Source: Anaeromyxobacter sp. Fw109-5 (lineage in GTDB: Bacteria > Myxococcota > Myxococcia > Myxococcales > Anaeromyxobacteraceae). Taken from it: a stretch of 64,000 bases of DNA. The notes below the pieces were generated by a model. That model was not told where the DNA came from, ran no database searches, and worked only from the letters and a program-made list of their open reading frames with translations. The first letter of the stretch is position 1; each line of letters opens with the position of its first letter. Shown here in pieces: positions 14,597 through 64,000 of this stretch. The position numbers and the translations under genes are program-made. Location: positions 2,480,001-2,544,000 of the forward strand of contig NC_009675.1 in the NCBI RefSeq assembly GCF_000017505.1, read 5' to 3'.

Positions 14597-17500
14597 TCAG
14601 CGGAACTCGCGCGCGCGGTTCCCGACCTGGGGCGCGAGCGCGAGCGGCGCGACCGAGCTCACCCGCACGTTCACGACCTCGCCGCTCCGCTCCACCCGGC
14701 CGCGCGCCAGGAGGAACGGGGCCGCACGCACGACCGGCCGGAACCGCTCGTACACGTCGGGCATCACGACGAGGTTGGCGATCCCGGTCTCGTCCTCGAG
14801 GCTCACGAAGACGATGCCCGCGGCGGTCTGAGGCCGCTGCCGGACGATCACGAGTCCCGCCACCTCGACGGGCGCGCGGTCGGGCAGGCGCGTCAGCTCC
14901 CGGGCGGTGCGGACGGCGCCGCCGGGGAGCGTGCCGCGCAGGACCGCCATCGGATGGCCGCGCACCGAGACGCTGGTCGTCGCGAAGTCCTCCGACACCT
15001 CCTCCGCCGCGCTCGCCGACGGGAGCGTCGCGTCCGGCTCGGCCGGGGTGACGCCCGCGAAGAGGTCGCCCCCGTCCGCCTCCATCGCGAGGCTGCGCCA
15101 GATCGCGCCGCGCCGGTCCGGCGCGAGCGATCCGAGCGCGTCGGCCTCGGCGAGCCGGACGAGCCAGGCCCGCGAGAGCCCCCCGCGCCGGACGAGGTCG
15201 CCCAGATCGGCGAGCGGGCGCGCCCGCCGCGCCGCCACGATGGCGTCGCCGACGTCCCGCGGCAGCCCGCGCACGAGGTGCAGTCCGAGCCGGATCGCAG
15301 GGGCTTCGCCAGCCCCCGCAGGCTCTCCAGGCGCCCTCCCCTCGAGGCCGCTCTCCCAGCCGCTCGCGCACACGTCGACCCCTCGCACCTCGACGCCGTG
15401 CCGCTTCGCGTCCTCGACGAGGGTGTGCGGCGCGTAGAAGCCCATGGGCTGGCTGTTCAGCAGGGCGCAGGCGAAGGCGGCGGGGTGATAGCGGCGGAGC
15501 CAGGCGGAGGCGTAGACGAGCAGGGCGAACGAGGCGGAGTGCGACTCGGGGAAGCCGTAGCCGGCGAACCCGAGGAGCTGGTGGAAGATGAGCTCGGCGT
15601 CCGCCGCGGAGATGCCGCGCTCGGCCATCCCGGCGAGCAGCCGCGCCTTCATCGCCGCGAGCTTCTCGTGCGATCGCCGGTGGGTCATGAGTCGACGCAG
15701 CTCGTCCGCCTCGCCCGGCGTGAACCCCGCGGCGACGACCGCGAGCCGCATGATCTGCTCCTGGAAGAGCGGCACGCCGAGGGTCTTCGCGAGGACCGGC
15801 TCGAGCGGCGGGTACGGGTAGCGGACCTGCTCCTTGCCGTCGCGCCGGCGCAGGTACGGGTGCACCATCCCCCCCTGGATCGGCCCGGGGCGCACGATCC
15901 CCACCGAGATCACGAGGTCGTAGAAGTTCCGCGGCTTGAGCCGCGGCGCGAGCGACATCTGCGCGCGCGACTCGATCTGGAACACGCCGATCGAGTCCGC
16001 CTTGCAGAGCATGTCGTAGACGGCGGGATCCTCGGGAGGGATGGTCGCGAGCGAATCCGGATGTGCGAGGCCAGCGGCGGTGGGGAGCGCCGGGGCCGGC
16101 CGGTGGGCGGCGAGGAGCGCGAGCGCGCGCGAGAGCGCCGTGAGCATGCCGAGCCCGAGGAGATCCACCTTGAGCAGGTCGAGGTCGGCGAGGTCGTCCT
16201 TGTCCCACTGCACGATGGTGCGCCCCGGCATCGCCGCGGGCTCGATGGGGACCGTCTCGCAGAGCGGCCGGCGGGTGATCACGAACCCGCCGACGTGGAT
16301 CGAGAGGTGACGCGGGAAGCCCTGCAGCTCGCGGGCGAGGTCGAGCGTCATGCGCACGCGGTCCGACGCCTCGACGTCGAGGCCCGCCTGGGCGAGGAGC
16401 TCCGGTCCGACCTCCGAGAGGTCCTCGTACATGCCGACGAGCTTGGCGAGCCGGTCGACCTGCGGGAGCGAGAGGCCGAGCGCCTTGCCCACGTCGCGGA
16501 GCGCGGACTTGCCGCGGTAGGTGATGACCTCGCAGACCATGCCCGCGCGGTCGCGTCCGTAGCGCTCGTAGACGTACTGGATCACCTCCTCGCGCCGCTC
16601 GTGCTCGAAGTCGATGTCGATGTCCGGCGGCTCTCCCCGCTCCGCCGAGATGAACCGCTCGAACAGCAGGCCCATCCGGACGGGATCGATCGCCGTGATG
16701 CCGAGCGCGTAGCAGACGGCGGAGTTCGCCGCGCTGCCGCGGCCCTGGCAGAGGATCCCGCGCGAGCGCGCGAAGCGGACGACGTCCCAGACGGTGAGGA
16801 AGTAGCTCGCGTACCCGAGCTGCTCGACGAGCTCGAGCTCCCGCGCGAGCTGCCGGGCGACGTCCTCCGGCGGCTCCCCGCCGTAGCGCCAGCGCGCCCC
16901 TTCGCGCACGAGCGCGCGGAGGAGCGCCATGCCCGAGACTCCGTCCGCTGGGTCGATCGGGGTCGAGGTCGTCCCTCGACTCCGCGCCTCCGCTGACGCG
17001 GAGTCGCTACGCTCGGGATGAGCGGCCTCTTTCCCCGGCGGTACCGGCGTCGCGGTCGGGGTCGCGGTCGGGGTCGCGGTCGGGGTCGCGGTCGGGGTCG
17101 CGGTCGGGGTCGGGGTCGCGGTCGGGGTCGCGGTCGGGGTCGCGGTCGGGGTCGCGGTCGGGGTCGCGGTCGGGGTCGGGGTCGTCCCTCGACTCCGCGC
17201 CTCCGCTGACGCGGAGTCGCTACGCTCGGGATGAGCGGCCATCGATTCCGCGGCAGGAGTTGGCGTCGTCCGCAGCGACCGGTTCGGCACCGCCGCGACG
17301 GCGCGAGCGTCCTGCGCCGGGCTCGACATCGCGGTCGCTGCGCCGCCCGCGAGGGTGGCGCGATCGACGACGACGGGCGGCAGCGGGTGCTCTCCCCGGA
17401 TCTCCTCCAGGCGGAACCGGCACCCGTCCGCGATCTCCGCGGCGGCCTCGAGTCCCTCGGGGAAGTCGCCCCACAGGCGCGCCATCTCCTCGGGGGCCTT

Positions 17501-18265
17501 GAGCGTCCGCTCCGCGTTCGGGAACAGGCGCCGGCCGGCCCGGTCGACCGTGGTGCCGTGGCGCACGCAGGTGAGGACGTCCTGCAGCACCTGCCGCCGC
17601 CGGTCGTGCGTGTGCACGTCGTTCGTGACCGCGATCCGGATGCCCAGCCGCCGGCCGATCGCGCGCGCGGCGAGCACGCGCGCCTCCTCGCCCGCCACCC
17701 GGTGACGGGCCACCGCCAGCGCGAGCCGCGCGCCGAAGATCTCCTTCAGGCGTGCCGCCGCGTCTCCGTCGGCGCCGGGGAAGAGCGCGAAGAGCCCGCG
17801 CGCCCGGGCGGCGACCGCCTCGAGCGCCACGGCGACCTCCTCCCGCGGCCGGCGGGGCGCGGCCCGCGCCGGGTCCTCCGCCCCGTGCGCGCGGGTCGCG
17901 AGGCGGCAGAGCCCCGCGTATCCCTCGCGATCCTGCGCGAGCAGCACGAGGCGCGCGGGCCGGCCGGTCGCGAGCCCGGTCACCACCAGCTCCGCGCCGA
18001 CCAGGAGCGGCAGCCCGCGCCGCTTCGCCTCCCCGTGCGCGCGGACGATCCCGTACAGCCCGTTCACGTCGGTGAGCGCGAGCGCCGAGAGCCCGAGCTC
18101 CGACGCGCGCGCGACGAGCTCCTCCGGATGGCTCGCGCCCTCCAGGAAGGAGAAGCAGGAGCGGCAGCGGAGCTCCGCGTAGCGCGGCACGCCCGGCCGG
18201 AGCGTCTTCCGCGCGCCGCCGGACGCGGCCGGTCCCGTGTCGATCCGCTGTCGCTCGTGGTTCAC
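14597..18265 (-). CDS. dnaE2: Error-prone DNA polymerase DnaE2/ImuC with in-frame repeat insertion
   Basis: DnaE2 (ImuC) is the catalytic subunit of the ImuA-ImuB-DnaE2 translesion mutasome. The product is 1222 residues, over 100 longer than usual. Domains: PHP near residues 25-230 (ELRCRSCFSFLEGASHPEEL); polymerase III alpha with catalytic aspartates in PDIDIDF (~547-553) and GRGSAANS; helix-hairpin-helix and a C-terminal OB fold. Between RGEHPLPPVVV and DGVSGMALLRALV lies a foreign stretch, about residues 320-437. It contains two copies of HPERSDSASAEARSRGTT flanking a run of Ala-Thr-Pro-Thr units, encoded by palindromic repeats and a minisatellite. The insertion precedes the palm, so function may survive. 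The GTG at 18265 is one base after the imuB stop. Confidence 0.95.
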   Translation of the reverse strand: MNHERQRIDTGPAASGGARKTLRPGVPRYAELRCRSCFSFLEGASHPEELVARASELGLSALALTDVNGLYGIVRAHGEAKRRGLPLLVGAELVVTGLATGRPARLVLLAQDREGYAGLCRLATRAHGAEDPARAAPRRPREEVAVALEAVAARARGLFALFPGADGDAAARLKEIFGARLALAVARHRVAGEEARVLAARAIGRRLGIRIAVTNDVHTHDRRRQVLQDVLTCVRHGTTVDRAGRRLFPNAERTLKAPEEMARLWGDFPEGLEAAAEIADGCRFRLEEIRGEHPLPPVVVDRATLAGGAATAMSSPAQDARAVAAVPNRSLRTTPTPAAESMAAHPERSDSASAEARSRGTTPTPTATPTATPTATPTATPTATPTPTATPTATPTATPTATPTATPVPPGKEAAHPERSDSASAEARSRGTTSTPIDPADGVSGMALLRALVREGARWRYGGEPPEDVARQLARELELVEQLGYASYFLTVWDVVRFARSRGILCQGRGSAANSAVCYALGITAIDPVRMGLLFERFISAERGEPPDIDIDFEHERREEVIQYVYERYGRDRAGMVCEVITYRGKSALRDVGKALGLSLPQVDRLAKLVGMYEDLSEVGPELLAQAGLDVEASDRVRMTLDLARELQGFPRHLSIHVGGFVITRRPLCETVPIEPAAMPGRTIVQWDKDDLADLDLLKVDLLGLGMLTALSRALALLAAHRPAPALPTAAGLAHPDSLATIPPEDPAVYDMLCKADSIGVFQIESRAQMSLAPRLKPRNFYDLVISVGIVRPGPIQGGMVHPYLRRRDGKEQVRYPYPPLEPVLAKTLGVPLFQEQIMRLAVVAAGFTPGEADELRRLMTHRRSHEKLAAMKARLLAGMAERGISAADAELIFHQLLGFAGYGFPESHSASFALLVYASAWLRRYHPAAFACALLNSQPMGFYAPHTLVEDAKRHGVEVRGVDVCASGWESGLEGRAPGEPAGAGEAPAIRLGLHLVRGLPRDVGDAIVAARRARPLADLGDLVRRGGLSRAWLVRLAEADALGSLAPDRRGAIWRSLAMEADGGDLFAGVTPAEPDATLPSASAAEEVSEDFATTSVSVRGHPMAVLRGTLPGGAVRTARELTRLPDRAPVEVAGLVIVRQRPQTAAGIVFVSLEDETGIANLVVMPDVYERFRPVVRAAPFLLARGRVERSGEVVNVRVSSVAPLALAPQVGNRAREFR
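16967..17027. repeat. 61-bp palindromic element, copy A (inside dnaE2)
   Basis: This copy is identical over 61 bp to the one at 17180-17240, in the same orientation. Its core is a perfect inverted repeat GACTCCGCG/CGCGGAGTC with a 10-base loop, so it would fold in DNA or RNA. The copies are 213 bp apart, exactly 71 codons, so both are read in the same frame and give the same peptide. It resembles REP-like intergenic palindromes but lies within a gene. Confidence 0.9.
17049..17179. repeat. 12-bp-unit minisatellite inside dnaE2
   Basis: The plus strand reads as tandem GGTCGCGGTCGG-type 12-mers, two runs of about five units split by one extra 6-bp GGGGTC. On the coding strand each unit specifies Ala-Thr-Pro-Thr. 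Because unit and interruption are multiples of three, gain or loss of units would change protein length without shifting frame. Confidence 0.9.
17180..17240. repeat. 61-bp palindromic element, copy B (inside dnaE2)
   Basis: This copy is identical to copy A at 16967-17027 and, with it, brackets the minisatellite. It encodes AAHPERSDSASAEARSRGTT-type sequence on the dnaE2 strand. The direct-repeat arrangement could allow deletion or expansion of the 213-bp unit by recombination without frameshift. Confidence 0.9.
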
Positions 18266-18266
18266 G

Positions 18267-19934
18267 TCAGTCGAAGTAGCCGTGCAGGTAGAGCCGTCCG
18301 TCCGCGGCGTCGCGGTACACCCAGCAATCGCCCAGCCCATCGAGCCGGACGCGGTAGTAGTCCCGGTCGAACGGCGCGGGCGCCCACCACTCGCCGCGCA
18401 GCCGCTCCGGCCCCTCCATCGCGATCACCGCCCGGGCGCGCCCCTCCACGCGGAGCGCGGTCACCCGCCCGCCCTCGCCCTCCGCGAGGATCGGCGCGGG
18501 GGGCTGCACGAGCCGGGTGGGCCGGGGCGGCGCCCCTTCGTCGCGCGCGGGGGCCGCGTCCCCGTCGCGGAGGAGGCTCCGCGGGCGCGCGGCCCCGGGC
18601 CGCGAGGCGGAGGGCTCGAACGGAACGGGCCGGTACGCCGCCTCGGGCCGGTAGCGCTCGACCGGCTCGGCGGCGAAGAGCGCGCCGTCGCCGAGCCGCC
18701 CGGTGAGCCGGGCGAGGACGTTCTCGAGGGCGGCGAGCGCCTCGGGCCGATCGTCGATCGCCAGCTGCTCGGCCGCCAACGGGGCGACCTCGATCGCTGC
18801 GAGCTGGACGGAGGTGACCGCACCGGGCAGCCGCAGCGCGAACACGTGCTCCTTCGCCGGGACGAGCCAGCGCGCGGCCGCCGCGGTGGGCTGGGCGAGC
18901 GGCACGATCACGCGCTCCTCCCCCCGCGGGTCGAGCTTCAGGACGATCTTGAGCCGCGTCGCGCCGAGGCCGCGGCCGGCGAGGCGCGCGGCGACGCGGT
19001 CGGCGAGCCGCTTCACCGCGAACAGGAGCGGCTCGGCGCTCTCGGCGGGCGCGTCGAGCTCGAGCGCCTCGACCGGCAACGTCTCCGGCGCGTAGGGCGA
19101 GAGCGGGGTGTCGTCCTCGCCGCGCGCGAGGCGCGCCGCCGCGACGCCGTCCGGCCCGAAGCGGTGCGCCAGCGTTCCGGCCGGCAGGCGCGCCAGCGCG
19201 CCCGCGTCCGCGACGCCGAGGCCACGGAGGCGCGCCGCCACCGCCGGCGCGAGCCCGAGCGCCTCGAGCGGCAGCGCGGCGAGGGCGCGTCCGGTCTCCT
19301 GCCGCGGCACCTGGACGATCCGCGCGGTCACGCCGTCGTGCGCGGGGAACGCGCCGTGCCGCGCGAGCGCGCCTGCCGCCGCGCGACCCGTCGCGATCGC
19401 CGCTTGCGCCACGTACCCCATCTCCGCCGCCGCCGCGATCGCCCGCTGCGCGAGGACCCGCTCGCCCGCGACGAGCGCGCGATCTCGCGCGGCCATCGTG
19501 CCGGTGATCACGGGAGCCGACGGAGCCGTTCCCCCGGCGGCGGTGGCCTCCGCGCGGGCCCCCTGCACGGCTCCGGCGAGGAGGTGCGCCGAGCTCGCGT
19601 CGAGGAGCACCACGTCCGGCGTGACCGGCTCGACCGCGGGGGCGAGCAGGAGCACCGCCTCCGCGACCGCGCGCAGCGCAGCGCGTTCCGCCGCGGGATC
19701 GAGCGCGACGGTGCGCAGCCGACCGCACGCGGCGAGCGCCGCGGATACCGTGGCGCCAGGGCGGACGCCGTCGGCGGCCGCGGCGGCGTCGCAGTGGACG
19801 ATCTTCCCGTCGGAGACGACCGCGAGCGGTCCCTCCCCCCCGTCGATGCGCAGCCTTCGCGCGCGCTGGAGCGGCAGCTCCGGCAGGCAGAGCGCGACGA
19901 CGCGCAGCCCGCTCGCCTCACGCCGCGTCGCCAT
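18267..19934 (-). CDS. imuB: ImuB, catalytically dead Y-family polymerase homologue
   Basis: ImuB is the adaptor of the SOS mutasome, bridging DnaE2, ImuA and the beta clamp. The 555-residue protein has a Y-family fold (VVALCLPELPLQRARRL at the N-terminus; HhH-like LPLEALGLAPAVAARLRGLG; little-finger region KIVLKLDPRGEERVIVPL). The acidic metal ligands of active Y-polymerases are absent: the first position reads LPELP instead of D-x-D, and the second LLDASSAHLL lacks the usual Glu. This is typical of ImuB. The gene overlaps imuA by 17 nt and ends one base before dnaE2, giving a three-gene operon. Confidence 0.9.
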   Translation of the reverse strand: MATRREASGLRVVALCLPELPLQRARRLRIDGGEGPLAVVSDGKIVHCDAAAAADGVRPGATVSAALAACGRLRTVALDPAAERAALRAVAEAVLLLAPAVEPVTPDVVLLDASSAHLLAGAVQGARAEATAAGGTAPSAPVITGTMAARDRALVAGERVLAQRAIAAAAEMGYVAQAAIATGRAAAGALARHGAFPAHDGVTARIVQVPRQETGRALAALPLEALGLAPAVAARLRGLGVADAGALARLPAGTLAHRFGPDGVAAARLARGEDDTPLSPYAPETLPVEALELDAPAESAEPLLFAVKRLADRVAARLAGRGLGATRLKIVLKLDPRGEERVIVPLAQPTAAAARWLVPAKEHVFALRLPGAVTSVQLAAIEVAPLAAEQLAIDDRPEALAALENVLARLTGRLGDGALFAAEPVERYRPEAAYRPVPFEPSASRPGAARPRSLLRDGDAAPARDEGAPPRPTRLVQPPAPILAEGEGGRVTALRVEGRARAVIAMEGPERLRGEWWAPAPFDRDYYRVRLDGLGDCWVYRDAADGRLYLHGYFD

Positions 19935-20658
19935 CTCCCACCTCCCCGCCGCCGCGCGCCTGCGGCCACCAGAGCCCGCGAGCGAGACCGCAGTGAGCCG
20001 CCGCGCCACTCCCCCATGCCGGCGCCTCCGCCGCTTGCCGGCGGCGACCGACGATCCGGCCGTCCTCTGCGCACAGCTCGAGGCGGACGGCCGCAGGGAC
20101 ACGGAGCCCCGTCCCGTTCTGCGCGGCGAGCCACAGCCCCACGGCGCCGCCCTTCTCCGCCGCCGCCTGGAGGCGGCGCGCCGCGGCGTCCGCGCCGCGC
20201 ACTGTGCGCGCCATCGGCACGTCGATCGCCACCGCGTCGAACGCACCCGACCCGAGGAGCGCCTCCGCGGCCCACAGGGCGACGAGCGCCGGGTCGCGCT
20301 CCGGGCCTCCACCGTGCGCCCGGGGCGGCGGCCGTACGACGAGGAGCCTGGAGAGCTCGACTCCGAGCGCCGCCGCGGCGGGCGGGTACAGCTCCCCTCG
20401 CCCATCGACGTAGGCGGCGAGGGCTCCTGGGCCGAGCGCAGCGAAGAGCGCCAGCGCGATCGCAGTCTTGCCGCTCGCCGGCCCTCCCGCGAGCTCGGTG
20501 AGCGCCCCACGCCGAAAACCGCCGTCTGGCAGCAAGGTGTCGATCTCCGCCCGGCCGCACGCCAGCACCCCTTCCCGCCGGGAGGGGCGCCGCTCGATGC
20601 GGCGGATCTCGTCGCGCAGCCGCGCGACCACCCGTTGACGCTCCGCCCCCGCCGACAT
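19918..20658 (-). CDS. imuA: ImuA, RecA-like mutasome protein
   Basis: This 246-residue protein has a RecA/SulA-like fold: VLACGRAEIDTLLPDGGFRRG leads into a Walker A loop GGPASGKTA, then AAYVDGRGELYPPAAAALGV, as in RecA-related ImuA. ImuA is needed with ImuB and DnaE2 for SOS mutagenesis, and is usually LexA-controlled. The ATG at 20658 follows GGAGG. It is the first gene of imuA-imuB-dnaE2, with a LexA-type box in its promoter. The C-terminus is Gly-rich and overlaps imuB. Confidence 0.88.
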   Translation of the reverse strand: MSAGAERQRVVARLRDEIRRIERRPSRREGVLACGRAEIDTLLPDGGFRRGALTELAGGPASGKTAIALALFAALGPGALAAYVDGRGELYPPAAAALGVELSRLLVVRPPPRAHGGGPERDPALVALWAAEALLGSGAFDAVAIDVPMARTVRGADAAARRLQAAAEKGGAVGLWLAAQNGTGLRVPAAVRLELCAEDGRIVGRRRQAAEAPAWGSGAAAHCGLARGLWWPQARGGGEVGDGDAA

Positions 20659-20681
20659 GCCGACCGCTGCCTCCGCGTCGC

Positions 20682-20711
20682 AAGATAGCTGCTCAAGCGT
20701 TCAGGTCGCAA
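20682..20711 (-). promoter_or_regulatory. imuA promoter with LexA box in the spacer
   Basis: On the minus strand TTGCGA (20706-20711) and TATCTT (20682-20687) are 18 bp apart. The spacer contains CCTGAACGCTTGAGCAG (20689-20705). Its reverse complement matches 15 of 17 positions of the Myxococcus xanthus LexA consensus CTRHAMRYBYGTTCAGS as I recall it. LexA bound here would block both hexamers. The predicted leader is short, about 17 nt. Confidence 0.72.
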
Positions 20712-20824
20712 GCCGTAGCAATCGGGTCTGACACGCGGCGTTGGGATGCTCACCCTATTCGCACATCAGCGAGCCACGGCAGTTCGGCCGGGCTCCGTCA
20801 TTCGGAGCAAGGGAGGGTATTGGA

Positions 20825-21481
20825 ATGAAGCATTTCGGATGGGTCGCGGGTCTCGGAGTCGCGGGTCTTCTCGTCGCGGGCATCCCCGCGCAGGCTCAGT
20901 CCGGCTCGACGACCGGCAGCCAGTCGACCGAAGATCAGATGAAGGGCTCCGGCTCCACGACGTCGCAGGGCACCGGCTCGGCCGGCTCCTCGACGATGGG
21001 CTCGGGCTCGGCCACCGGGTCGAGCACGGGGATGGAGAGCAGCAAGAACGAGCTCACCGGCACGGTCCAGAAGTTCGACCGCGAGACGAAGGAGCTCACC
21101 CTCGCGAACAGCGACAAGACGCTCAAGGTGAGCGAGAGCACCACCGTGATGAAGGACGGCCAGGCCGGCACCCTCAGCGACATCAAGGAGGGCGAGCAGG
21201 TCCGCGCGAGCTTCTCCGGCTCGGGTGACACGCTGCAGGTGAGCCAGATCGAGGTGATGACCGCGGGCAGCACCGGCACGTCGGGCATGGGGACGGGCTC
21301 CACCGGCACCACGACGCCGCCGTCCGACACCGGGACCGGCTCCACGGGCACCACCACGACGCCGCCGTCCGACACCGGCACCGGCTCCACGGGCACCACC
21401 ACGACGCCGCCGTCCGATACCGGGACCACGCATGACAGCGGCTCGAGCGGCGCGACCCCGCCTCCGAGCAAGGGTTACTAG
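20825..21481 (+). CDS. Secreted Gly/Ser/Thr-rich protein with C-terminal repeats
   Basis: The 218-residue product starts with a signal peptide (MKHFGWVAGLGVAGLLVAGI, cleavage likely after AQA). It then has a Ser/Gly/Thr-rich linker, a small folded domain (NELTGTVQKFDRETKELTLA ... VSQIEVMTAG, resembling DUF5666-type beta barrels) and a C-terminal tail of three repeats, GTGSTGTTTTPPSDT. A strong GGAGGG site precedes the ATG and a textbook terminator follows, so it is probably well expressed as a single gene. The function is unknown; a periplasmic or surface role is inferred from the signal peptide and disordered tail. Confidence 0.75.
   Translation: MKHFGWVAGLGVAGLLVAGIPAQAQSGSTTGSQSTEDQMKGSGSTTSQGTGSAGSSTMGSGSATGSSTGMESSKNELTGTVQKFDRETKELTLANSDKTLKVSESTTVMKDGQAGTLSDIKEGEQVRASFSGSGDTLQVSQIEVMTAGSTGTSGMGTGSTGTTTPPSDTGTGSTGTTTTPPSDTGTGSTGTTTTPPSDTGTTHDSGSSGATPPPSKGY
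21290..21420 (+). repeat. 45-bp tandem repeats in the secreted-protein gene
   Basis: Three near-identical in-frame units (the first 42 bp, then two of 45 bp at about 21331-21375 and 21376-21420) encode GTGSTGTTTTPPSDT. The first unit lacks one Thr codon. The sequences differ at only a few positions, so copy-number change is plausible. Confidence 0.85.
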
Positions 21482-59621: not shown

Positions 59622-62600
59622 ATGTCCAAGAACGAGACGATCCCGACGCGCCGGCGTCGCCCCGCACCCCCGTCGGACGGGCCCGAGCGCGACGCGGCAG
59701 CCGCCGGCGCGCCGGATCGCGCCTGGGCCGGCCGGAGCCCGGGCGGCCGAGGTGGCGTGACGGGCGATGGCGCGAGGAGCAGGCGCCGCGGCGGCCCCCC
59801 GCCTGGCGAGGCCGTGGTCTCCGGCCCCGTTCCGCGGGCCGCCCGTGACGGCGCCGCCGCTCGCGAGGGCCTCGACGGCTTCACGGAGTGGGACCTCCTC
59901 TCGCGCGCGAGCCAGGACGAGGTGGACCAGCTCGCCGACGTCCTCAAGGCGGTGAAGGCGGGCGACTTCTCGGTCCGCCTCCCCTATCGGCGCGACGGCA
60001 TCCTCTCGCGCGTCGGCGAGATCCTGAACGACATCCTCCAGCTCAACGAGCACGTCTCCGTCGAGCTCCTGCGCGTCGCGAAGGTCGTCGGCCAGGAGGG
60101 AAAGATGACCGAGCGCGCCTCGGTGGGTCCGGCGAAGGGCGCCTGGGCCGCCGGCATGAGCGCGGTGAACCAGCTCATCGGCGATCTCGTCGCGCCCACC
60201 AACGAGGTCGCTCGCGTCATCACGGCGGTCGCGAAGGGCGACCTCTCCCAGAAGATGTCCCTCGACATCGAGGGCCGTCCGGTCCGCGGCGAGTTCCTCC
60301 GCATCGGCACGACCGTGAACTCGATGGTCGATCAGCTGAACTCCTTCGCGGCGGAGGTGACGCGCGTCGCGAAGGAGGTGGGCAACGAGGGGAAGCTGGG
60401 CGGCCAGGCCGACGTGAAGGGCGTCAGCGGCACCTGGAAGGACCTCACCGACAACGTGAACGGCCTCGCCGCGAACCTGACGGCGCAGGTGCGGAACATC
60501 GCCAAGGTGACGACCGCCGTCGCCAAGGGCGACCTCTCGCAGAAGATCACCGTCGACGCGCGGGGCGAGATCCTCGAGCTCAAGAACACCATCAACGTGA
60601 TGGTCGATCAGCTCCAGTCCTTCGCGGCGGAGGTGACGCGCGTCGCGAAGGAGGTGGGCAACGAGGGGAAGCTGGGCGGCCAGGCCGACGTGAAGGGCGT
60701 CAGCGGCACCTGGAAGGACCTCACCGACAACGTGAACGGCCTCGCCGCGAACCTGACGGCGCAGGTGCGGAACATCGCCAAGGTCACGACCGCGGTCGCG
60801 AACGGCGACCTCTCGCAGAAGATCACCGTCGACGCGCGGGGCGAGATCTACGAGCTGAAGAACACCATCAACACGATGGTCGACACGCTGCGCTCCTTCG
60901 CGGCGGAGGTGACGCGCGTCGCCAAGGAGGTCGGCACGGAGGGCAAGCTCGGCGGCCAGGCCGACGTGAAGGGCGTCGCCGGCACCTGGAAGGACCTCAC
61001 CGACAACGTGAACGGCCTCGCGGCGAACCTCACCGCGCAGGTGCGCAACATCGCCAAGGTCACGACCGCGGTCGCGAACGGCGACCTCTCGCAGAAGATC
61101 ACCGTCGACGCGCGGGGCGAGATCTACGAGCTGAAGAACACCATCAACACGATGGTCGACACGCTGCGCTCCTTCGCGGCGGAGGTGACGCGCGTCGCCA
61201 AGGAGGTCGGCACGGAGGGCAAGCTCGGCGGCCAGGCCGACGTGAAGGGCGTCGCCGGCACCTGGAAGGACCTCACCGACAACGTGAACACGATGGCGTC
61301 GAACCTGACCGTCCAGCTGCGCGACGTGTCGAAGGTCGCGATCGCGATCGCCCACGGCGATCTGACGCAGAAGATCACCGTCGACGTGAAGGGGGAGATC
61401 CTCCAGATCAAGGACGTCATCAACAAGATGGTCGACCAGCTGAACTCGTTCGCCGCGGAGGTGACGCGCGTCGCGCGCGAGGTCGGCACGGAGGGCAAGC
61501 TCGGGGGCCAGGCGGAGGTGCGCGGCGTCAGCGGCACCTGGAAGGACCTCACCGACAACGTGAACGCGATGGCGTCCAACCTGACCGTCCAGCTGCGCGA
61601 CGTGTCCAAGGTGGCGACCGCCATCGCGAACGGGGATCTCGGCCAGAAGATCACGGTCGACGTGAAGGGGGAGATCCTCCAGATCAAGGACGTCATCAAC
61701 AAGATGGTCGACCAGCTGAACTCGTTCGCCGCGGAGGTCACCCGCGTCGCGAAGGAGGTCGGCACGGAGGGCAAGCTCGGCGGCCAGGCCGAGGTGCGCG
61801 GTGTCAGCGGCACCTGGAAGGACCTCACCGACAACGTGAACGGCCTCGCGGCGAACCTCACCGCGCAGGTGCGGAACATCGCCAAGGTGACGACCGCGGT
61901 CGCGAACGGCGACCTCTCGCAGAAGATCACCGTCGACGCGCGCGGGGAGATCTTCGAGCTGAAGACCACCATCAACACCATGGTCGATCAGCTCCGTTCG
62001 TTCGCCGCGGAGGTGACCCGCGTCGCGAAGGAGGTCGGCACGGAGGGGAAGCTCGGCGGCCAGGCCGAGGTGCGCGGCGTCAGCGGCACCTGGAAGGACC
62101 TCACCGACAACGTGAACGGCCTCGCCGCGAACCTGACCACCCAGGTGCGCAACATCGCCAAGGTGACGACCGCCGTCGCGAAGGGCGATCTGTCCCAGAA
62201 GATCACCGTCGAGGCGAAGGGCGAGATCCTCGAGCTGAAGAACACCATCAACGTGATGGTGGACCAGCTGAACTCGTTCGCCGCGGAGGTGACCCGCGTC
62301 GCGAAGGAGGTCGGCACGGAGGGCAAGCTCGGCGGCCAGGCCGAGGTGAGCGGCGTCAGCGGCACGTGGAAGGACCTCACCGACAACGTGAACGCGATGG
62401 CCTCCAACCTGACCGTCCAGCTGCGGGACGTGTCCAAGGTGGCGACCGCGATCGCCAACGGAGACCTCACCCAGAAGATCACGGTCGACGTGAAGGGGGA
62501 GATCCTCCAGATCAAGGACGTCATCAACAAGATGGTCGACCAGCTGAACTCGTTCGCCGCGGAGGTGACGCGCGTCGCGCGCGAGGTCGGCACGGAGGGG

Positions 62601-64000
62601 AAGCTGGGCGGTCAGGCGAACGTGCGCGGCGTCAGCGGCACGTGGAAGGACCTCACCGACAACGTGAACTTCATGGCCTCGAACCTCACCACCCAGGTGC
62701 GGGGCATCGTGAAGGTCGTCACCGCCATCGCGAACGGCGACCTGTCGCAGAAGTTCGTGCTCGAGGCGAAGGGCGAGGTGGCCGCCCTCGCCGAGACCAT
62801 CAACTCGATGACCGACACCCTCCGCACCTTCGCGGATCAGGTGTCGACGGTGGCGCGCGAGGTCGGCGTGGAGGGCAAGCTGGGCGCGCAGGCGCGGGTG
62901 CCGGGCGTCGCCGGCACGTGGAAGGACCTCACCGACAACGTGAACTTCATGGCCTCGAACCTGACCACGCAGGTGCGCGGCATCGTGAAGGTCGTGACGG
63001 CGGTGGCGAACGGCGACCTGTCGCAGAAGTTCGTGCTCGAGGCGAAGGGCGAGGTGGCCGCCCTCGCCGAGACCATCAACTCGATGACCGACACCCTCCG
63101 CATCTTCGCGGACGAGGTGACCGGGGTCGCGCGAGAGGTCGGCATCGAGGGGAAGCTCGGCGGTCAGGCGAAGGTGCCCGGCGCCGCGGGCACCTGGCGC
63201 GACCTCACGGACAACGTGAACCAGCTCGCCGGGAACCTCACCTCGCAGGTGCGCGCCATCGCGGAGGTCTCGACGGCGGTGACGAAGGGCGATCTCACCC
63301 GCTCCATCACGGTCGAGGCGCAGGGCGAGGTGGCCGCCCTGAAGGACAACATCAACCAGATGATCTCCACCCTGAAGGAGACGACGCAGAAGAACACCGA
63401 GCAGGACTGGCTCAAGACGAACCTCGCGAACTTCTCCAACATGATGCAGGGGCAGCGGAACATCGTCTCCGTGGCCCAGGCGATCATCTCGAAGCTCACG
63501 CCGCTCGTGAACGCCGCGCACGGCGCCTTCTTCCTGATGGACCGCGACGACGAGAGCGGCGCTCCGTCCCTGAACCTCATCGCGAGCTACGGCTTCGGCG
63601 GCAGGAAGACCCTCGCGTCCTCGTACCGCCTGAAGGAGACGCTCATCGGGCAGTGCGCGTTCGAGAAGCAGCGCATCCTGCTCTCGCATGTGCCGGCGGA
63701 CTTCATCTACATCGCGACCGGGATGGGGGAGGCGCCGCCGCGCTCCGTGGTGGTCCTGCCGGTGCTGTTCGAGGGCGAGACGAAGGCGGTGATCGAGCTC
63801 GCCGCGTTCAAGGAGTTCAGCCCGAACCACCTGGCCTTCTTCGATCAGCTCATGGAGAACGTCGGCGTCATCCTCAACATGATCGGCTCGAGCATGCGGA
63901 CCGAGGAGCTCCTGCAGGAGCTGAAGCGGTCCAACGCCGAGCTCGAGGCGCAGGCGGGCGAGCTGAACGAGAAGGCCAAGCTGCTCGAGCAGAAGAACAG
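59622..64000 (+). CDS. Giant multi-HAMP, GAF-containing signalling protein (probable hybrid kinase), C-terminus beyond window
   Basis: The visible 1459 residues begin [20 protein letters not shown] and have a disordered, basic N-terminus of about 85 residues, then a first divergent HAMP-like unit. Eleven tandem 92-residue HAMP modules follow, each with [16 protein letters not shown] and GDLSQKI-type sequence. After them come a GAF domain (about residues 1270-1420; [36 protein letters not shown]) and a coiled coil ([20 protein letters not shown]). This order matches group III hybrid histidine kinases of fungi and their bacterial relatives, so HisKA, ATPase and receiver domains are expected past 64000. 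No transmembrane helix is seen. An AGGA-containing site precedes the ATG. Confidence 0.9.
60324..63359 (+). repeat. Eleven exact-length 276-bp tandem modules encoding HAMP domains
   Basis: Modules start at 60324 and every 276 bp to 63084, ending at 63359 with no length variation (3036 = 11 x 276). A landmark codon for Met (ATG at 60324, 60600 and so on to 63360) marks the period. Bases 60771-61013 are identical to 61047-61289 (243 bp), while the last three modules (from about 62530) are the most divergent. Confidence 0.95.

Follow-up and report, generated by a model that had tools for sequence, protein, structure and literature searches.

The GNGGTC hexamer array in the dnaE2 gene of Anaeromyxobacter sp. 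Fw109-5 is best explained as a dispersed repeat cassette that sits in an already variable linker between the PHP and palm domains, of which only in-frame lengths survived. We put the probability that it is such a tolerated passenger at roughly 75%. The gene lies in a stretch of 64,000 nt, here called the window, in which the relevant features have the following positions.

14597-18340, minus strand: dnaE2, ORF of 1247 amino acids for an error-prone DNA polymerase, which carries the tract (Pfam, NF004225)

16967-17027, minus strand: second copy of the PAL element, in the same direction as the first (sequence match)

17028-17044, minus strand: spacer that separates PAL from the array, TCTTTCCCCGG..., translated as VPPGKE; it recurs in the copy at 2332.6 kb (local match to L148)

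17045-17184, minus strand: GNGGTC hexamer array in the PHP-palm linker, encoding Thr-Pro and Thr-Ala dipeptides (TRF, translation)

17051-17116, minus strand: first 66-bp block (5 x 12 bp + 6 bp)

17117-17182, minus strand: second 66-bp block, identical to the first

17180-17240, minus strand: PAL, a 61-nt hairpin element, copy nearer the N-terminal side; in frame it reads AAHPERSDSASAEARSRGTT, and its first nucleotides overlap the hexamer array

18267-20753, minus strand: imuB-like ORF (Y-family polymerase-like) upstream of dnaE2, with weak DNA polymerase IV matches below the cut-off; the start is putative

19918-20658, minus strand: imuA-like ORF upstream of dnaE2 (NF033429 ImuA, 62 bits)

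The dnaE2 ORF is intact, and its product scored 1282 bits against the NCBIfam model NF004225 (error-prone DNA polymerase, cut-off 939), which places it in the DnaE2/ImuC family. Pfam domains were located at residues 56-197 (PHP), 473-729 (DNA_pol3_alpha) and 762-909 (finger), together with HHH_6 and OB domains. Order and strand agree with an imuA-imuB-dnaE2 arrangement, but the matches of both upstream ORFs remained below the curated cut-offs (150 bits in the case of ImuA). In the alignment with the E. coli Pol III alpha subunit (5fku), residues 322-495 of DnaE2 lie opposite residues 280-322, and the tract is situated in the PHP-to-palm linker, which is about 130 residues longer than its E. 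coli counterpart. The dnaE2 gene of Myxococcus xanthus is described in the accessible part of PMC5285347 as dispensable and error-prone, and tolerance of an insert in dnaE2 would fit these properties. Beside imuA, a 45-bp repeat of about three copies (window positions 21290-21427) encodes Thr/Pro/Ser-rich units in an ORF of 246 amino acids (20741-21481).

TRF reported 12.2 copies of a 12-bp unit with a score of 224, that is, head-to-tail units beyond chance expectation, and the run lies in frame within the minus-strand ORF, as had been predicted from the letters alone. With 117 of 120 positions, the 12-bp self-match of the array ranked top among 5807 sampled 132-bp windows of the 64 kb. The exact core (17051-17182) consists of the two 66-bp blocks, each composed of five 12-bp units and one 6-bp half unit. 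The original prediction had a single partial unit in the middle; this half unit is present, but a second one is found at the end. Since the two blocks are identical, they point to a recent duplication in the tract. Each 6-bp step in unit number preserves the frame, as anticipated. In a check for a G-quadruplex or hairpin, the RNA fold of the array proved more stable than that of shuffled sequences (z -4.4).

Arrays of this kind occur throughout the genome, which is a single contig of 5,277,990 bp. Searches with two hexamer queries yielded 138 and 128 overlapping matches, and own-genome loci around hexamer-query matches and PAL copies contained at least 68 arrays with a minimum of six GNGGTC units, one of them being the dnaE2 array; this number is a lower bound, as loci known only from a search for the left ends of an HNH-endonuclease element (see below) were left out. 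Five tandem GVGGTC units matched 1229 times in the own genome, 1028 times in G003, 58 times in G006, 44 times in G004, 10 times in G007 and 130 times in G008, the genome of which is incomplete, and there were 0 matches in G001, G002 and G005. Altogether, 11 of 31 genomes had such a match, and a control with the reversed pattern gave 0 matches in all 31. Seven tandem units were present in at least 117 stretches of the genome collection; among 80 listed stretches, a hand count assigned 50 to sequences titled Myxococcota or 'Deltaproteobacteria' and 30 to scattered other titles. In the own genome, arrays are found both inside unrelated genes and where no gene was recognised, and they neighbour PAL copies and the ends of the HNH element. 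Judged by this distribution, the hexamer array is not special to dnaE2 and appears as a lineage-specific dispersed family in Anaeromyxobacter. The accessible parts of the Anaeromyxobacter literature on tandem repeats and minisatellites contained nothing on GNGGTC arrays.

The sequences flanking the dnaE2 array had been described as palindromes, and each of them does fold on itself (-31.8 kcal/mol, z -2.4). They are, however, two direct copies of one element, PAL, both identical to the query over all 61 positions. The copies are 213 nt apart from start to start, which corresponds to 71 codons and is a multiple of three, and the PAL frame continues directly into the array's Thr-X frame. At least 47 copies are present in the own genome. 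Being multi-copy, self-complementary and in frame in unrelated genes, PAL has the properties of a protein-coding palindromic element similar to those of Rickettsia. Its HPERS frame is used in dnaE2, in the beta-propeller gene L148 at 2332.6 kb and in L153, which encodes an ABC ATPase-permease fusion, and a diverged form occurs in L151. The dnaE2 gene and L148 share 237 nt with 89.5% identity, including the 17-nt spacer, and L148 also has the order PAL-array-PAL; in L153, two PAL copies flank the array. In a test covering 30 of 47 PAL matches, 20 copies had at least two hexamers within a left-end window of 42 nt, compared to 5 of 300 control windows.

PAL and the hexamer arrays are separable, because PAL is common in three species without arrays (48, 45 and 27 matches in G001, G002 and G005, respectively). 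For the same reason, PAL was rejected as the sole source of the arrays. G006, in turn, has 1 PAL match and 58 array matches. G003 and G006, the closest relatives, carry hexamers at the same dnaE2 site, and no PAL was found in their dnaE2 linker peptides, suggesting that the array may predate PAL at this site in these species. In the three array-less species, PAL copies are located just past the matched end of dnaE2 (G001:C306:4585-4783, G002:C1:1849980, G005:C1:2589833).

The second neighbour of the arrays is a 1.87-kb mobile element encoding an HNH endonuclease of 467 amino acids (PF01844; L124:2944-4811, own genome ~1470.4-1472.3 kb), many full and internally deleted copies of which are present in the own genome. 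Its left end gave 29 matches, 23 of them with the full end. At least two hexamers preceded the full end within 90 nt in 22 of these 23 cases, and in the remaining one the hexamers were inverted. The element may therefore insert into arrays or nucleate them. As their sole source it was rejected, as PF01844 is multi-copy in G001, G002, G005 and G007, yet these genomes have just 0-10 array matches. None of the six HNH copies of G007 and G003 whose ends were inspected (of seven fetched) abutted a hexamer array. Several of the six sit in GGGCGCAGCCC-type palindromes instead. At L334, L335 and L337 (G007) and L343 (G003), the ends of the element resemble GATTCATCACA...GATGTGATGAATC, and the neighbouring sequences are GGGCGCAGCCC-type palindromes or other sequence.

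The hexamer is open in all six frames. Arrays were scored as coding when no stop occurred across the array and the codon-position G+C bias was at least 0.2 on both sides. Ten of the 68 own-genome arrays passed this test, nine with a Thr-X reading (Thr-Pro/Ala/Ser) and one with Arg-Gly; at a threshold of 0.25, seven passed and all were read as Thr-X. The preference is weaker outside the own genome, since the collection stretches (117, most from other species, with 125 arrays) gave 24 passing arrays at 0.2, of which 13 were read as Thr-X, 6 as Asp-X and 5 otherwise. Among the nine Thr-X genes, Pfam identified, besides dnaE2, an ABC ATPase with an ABC-2 permease, a P-type ATPase, a PAPS reductase with an APS kinase, an acyltransferase, a protein with two ABC domains and KsgA, and with weaker matches a protein kinase (below the cut-off) and a beta-propeller with Omp85 (the latter just below the cut-off). 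In the ABC ATPase-permease, PAPS reductase-APS kinase and double-ABC proteins, the two named domains are separated by the array. The ksgA gene carries a 33-unit in-frame array within the methyltransferase domain (L080:613-816, own genome 4442712-4442915); alignment with a solved homologue pairs about 80 residues of KsgA with about 13, immediately ahead of the NLPY motif. In the heavy-metal P-type ATPase, a 64-unit in-frame array adds about 130 residues between conserved stretches (L056:532-927, own genome 1381931-1382326). Arrays spotted by eye in a SpoIID-like gene and in an FtsJ-like C-terminal tail failed the coding test. The array at 1846864-1846941 (L143) joins PAPS reductase to APS kinase in a CysH-CysC fusion, and that at 1074766-1074861 (L153) joins the ABC ATPase to its permease, which in both cases looks like a fusion of adjacent genes by the repeat.

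The PHP-palm linker, measured between the conserved HPLPP and the LLR motif in 12 members of the Anaeromyxobacteraceae, comprises 150 amino acids in the own genome, 99, 69, 85, 84, 94, 87 and 83 in seven other members of the genus, and 67, 67, 52 and 23 in four other genera. At this site we counted 25 hexamers in the own genome (G000), 25 in G003, 11 in G006 and 18 in G011, and no more than 3 in each of the remaining eight; a hexamer tract is thus found at the same position in two genera, as G011 belongs to another genus, where the hexamers differ in composition. The predicted length variability is therefore borne out between species. The array-less genus members have non-repetitive linkers of 83-94 amino acids at the same site (five of the eight whose linker was read), and linkers without hexamers are rich in Ala and Pro. 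In the families of other orders that were examined, there was little or no insert. The linker site thus varies between species, and array-less relatives attain similar lengths.

The most likely process is that the dnaE2 tract arrived as, or became, a PAL-spacer-array-PAL cassette in a probably disordered PHP-palm linker. We infer that the array gains and loses units of 6, 12 and 66 bp by replication slippage or unequal recombination, and the twin 66-bp blocks would be the expected trace of a block duplication. As the units are multiples of two codons and PAL and array have one stop-free frame in common (HPERS...RG-Thr-X), dnaE2 remains open and acquires a Thr-Pro/Ala/Ser spacer. Purifying selection would retain only copies in tolerant loops and linkers, changes in multiples of 6 bp and mostly the Thr-X frame. 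The outcome in dnaE2 would be a longer, probably disordered spacer, which probably affects the polymerase little or not at all. It is possible, although we hold this only tentatively and consider it more doubtful than not, that hairpin element and GNGGTC array form a selfish cassette that is spreading in Anaeromyxobacter and that, being read in one frame as a ready-made Thr-Pro/Ala/Ser spacer in any gene it enters, it lengthens loops of core enzymes (KsgA, the metal P-type ATPase, DnaE2) and maybe fuses neighbouring genes (PAPS reductase/APS kinase, ABC ATPase/permease). Through such a cassette, repeats would generate new protein linkers.

Other explanations have to be weighed against the tolerated passenger. 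There is hardly any chance that the tract results from misassembly or a sequencing error. Assemblies may collapse short tandem repeats, as had been pointed out with the original prediction, but collapse is unlikely for a tract of 140 bp in a Sanger-finished genome (published size 5.28 Mb; PMC4319575); moreover, the genome is one contig and two sister assemblies have orthologous tracts. Selection might also keep the linker itself, in that the Anaeromyxobacteraceae benefit from a long disordered PHP-palm spacer and any low-complexity lengthening is favoured, the hexamers being one source among others. The linker length of 52-150 amino acids in 11 of the 12 family members, the Ala/Pro-rich composition where hexamers are lacking and the 18 differently composed hexamers of G011 would agree with this idea. 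The length is not constant, however, and G010 has a linker of just 23 amino acids, so we regard such selection as unlikely.

We judge it quite improbable that the tract is a contingency locus in which the unit number of the linker sets the spacing between PHP domain and polymerase and thereby tunes error-prone synthesis between cells; the original prediction had suggested that the unit number could tune the linker length between isolates. Points in favour are 6-bp units that keep the frame of a mutagenesis gene, linker lengths that differ between species and a hexamer tract at one site in two genera. There is also a known parallel, as the available portion of PMC2955026 describes three hexamer units in the lid of the ATP-binding pocket of MutL of Salmonella and E. 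coli, whose number is altered by slippage with loss of function, switching mismatch repair on and off. Both genes govern the mutation rate, and both contain hexamer units in frame. In contrast to the three lid units of mutL, however, the about 22 units of dnaE2 lie in a tolerant inter-domain linker and not in an active site, and the repeat occurs genome-wide. Other genes that contain such arrays are unrelated to dnaE2, some arrays lie outside recognised genes, unrelated proteins carry the array in the same frame, tract-less relatives have comparable linkers, and the examined families of other orders have little or no insert. Because the hexamer family is genome-wide, tuning of polymerase fidelity is unsupported and was rejected as the main reading, and neither specificity to a mutagenesis gene nor selection in it was borne out. 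As far as the accessible text on mutL goes, repeats can act as switches in genes that control mutation; nothing found here points there for dnaE2. A repeat in a mutator gene thus need not be a mutation switch, which corrects a tempting idea.

The cassette reading gives the tract a wider meaning, as about nine proteins of the own genome carry a single hexamer family in one shared reading frame, in KsgA even within the methyltransferase domain. If the cassette is mobile, it would offer a traceable case of repeats building inter-domain linkers and gene fusions in bacteria, for which the close relatives without arrays are natural controls. Bacterial intragenic minisatellites (VNTRs) are frame-keeping tandem repeats that encode disordered peptides, usually in surface proteins. 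The arrays described here resemble them in keeping the frame and in the kind of peptide encoded, but they lie in housekeeping enzymes, and one unit family occupies dozens of loci. The closest precedents of the cassette are the mutL hexamer and the Rickettsia palindromic elements (RPEs), the latter reportedly the subject of studies by Ogata in 2000 and 2002. Like PAL, RPEs are small multi-copy palindromes located in frame inside unrelated genes, according to the part of PMC10969869 available to us. Unlike the RPEs of about 150 bp, PAL has 61 nt, brackets or adjoins a hexamer array and belongs to a different phylum, and the two are likened here by description and not by sequence. Four of the five bacteria most enriched in low-complexity regions (LCRs) are myxobacteria according to the accessible text of PMC6821194, the main text of which, as far as available, contains no occurrence of Anaeromyxobacter. 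In the genome studied here, the source of the repeats is a single hexamer family at the DNA level together with a single hairpin element.

Elsewhere in the window, a 276-bp repeat with 10.8 copies (positions 60318-63296) encodes a string of 92-amino acid repeats in a large plus-strand ORF; these repeats presumably resemble those of multi-HAMP sensors.
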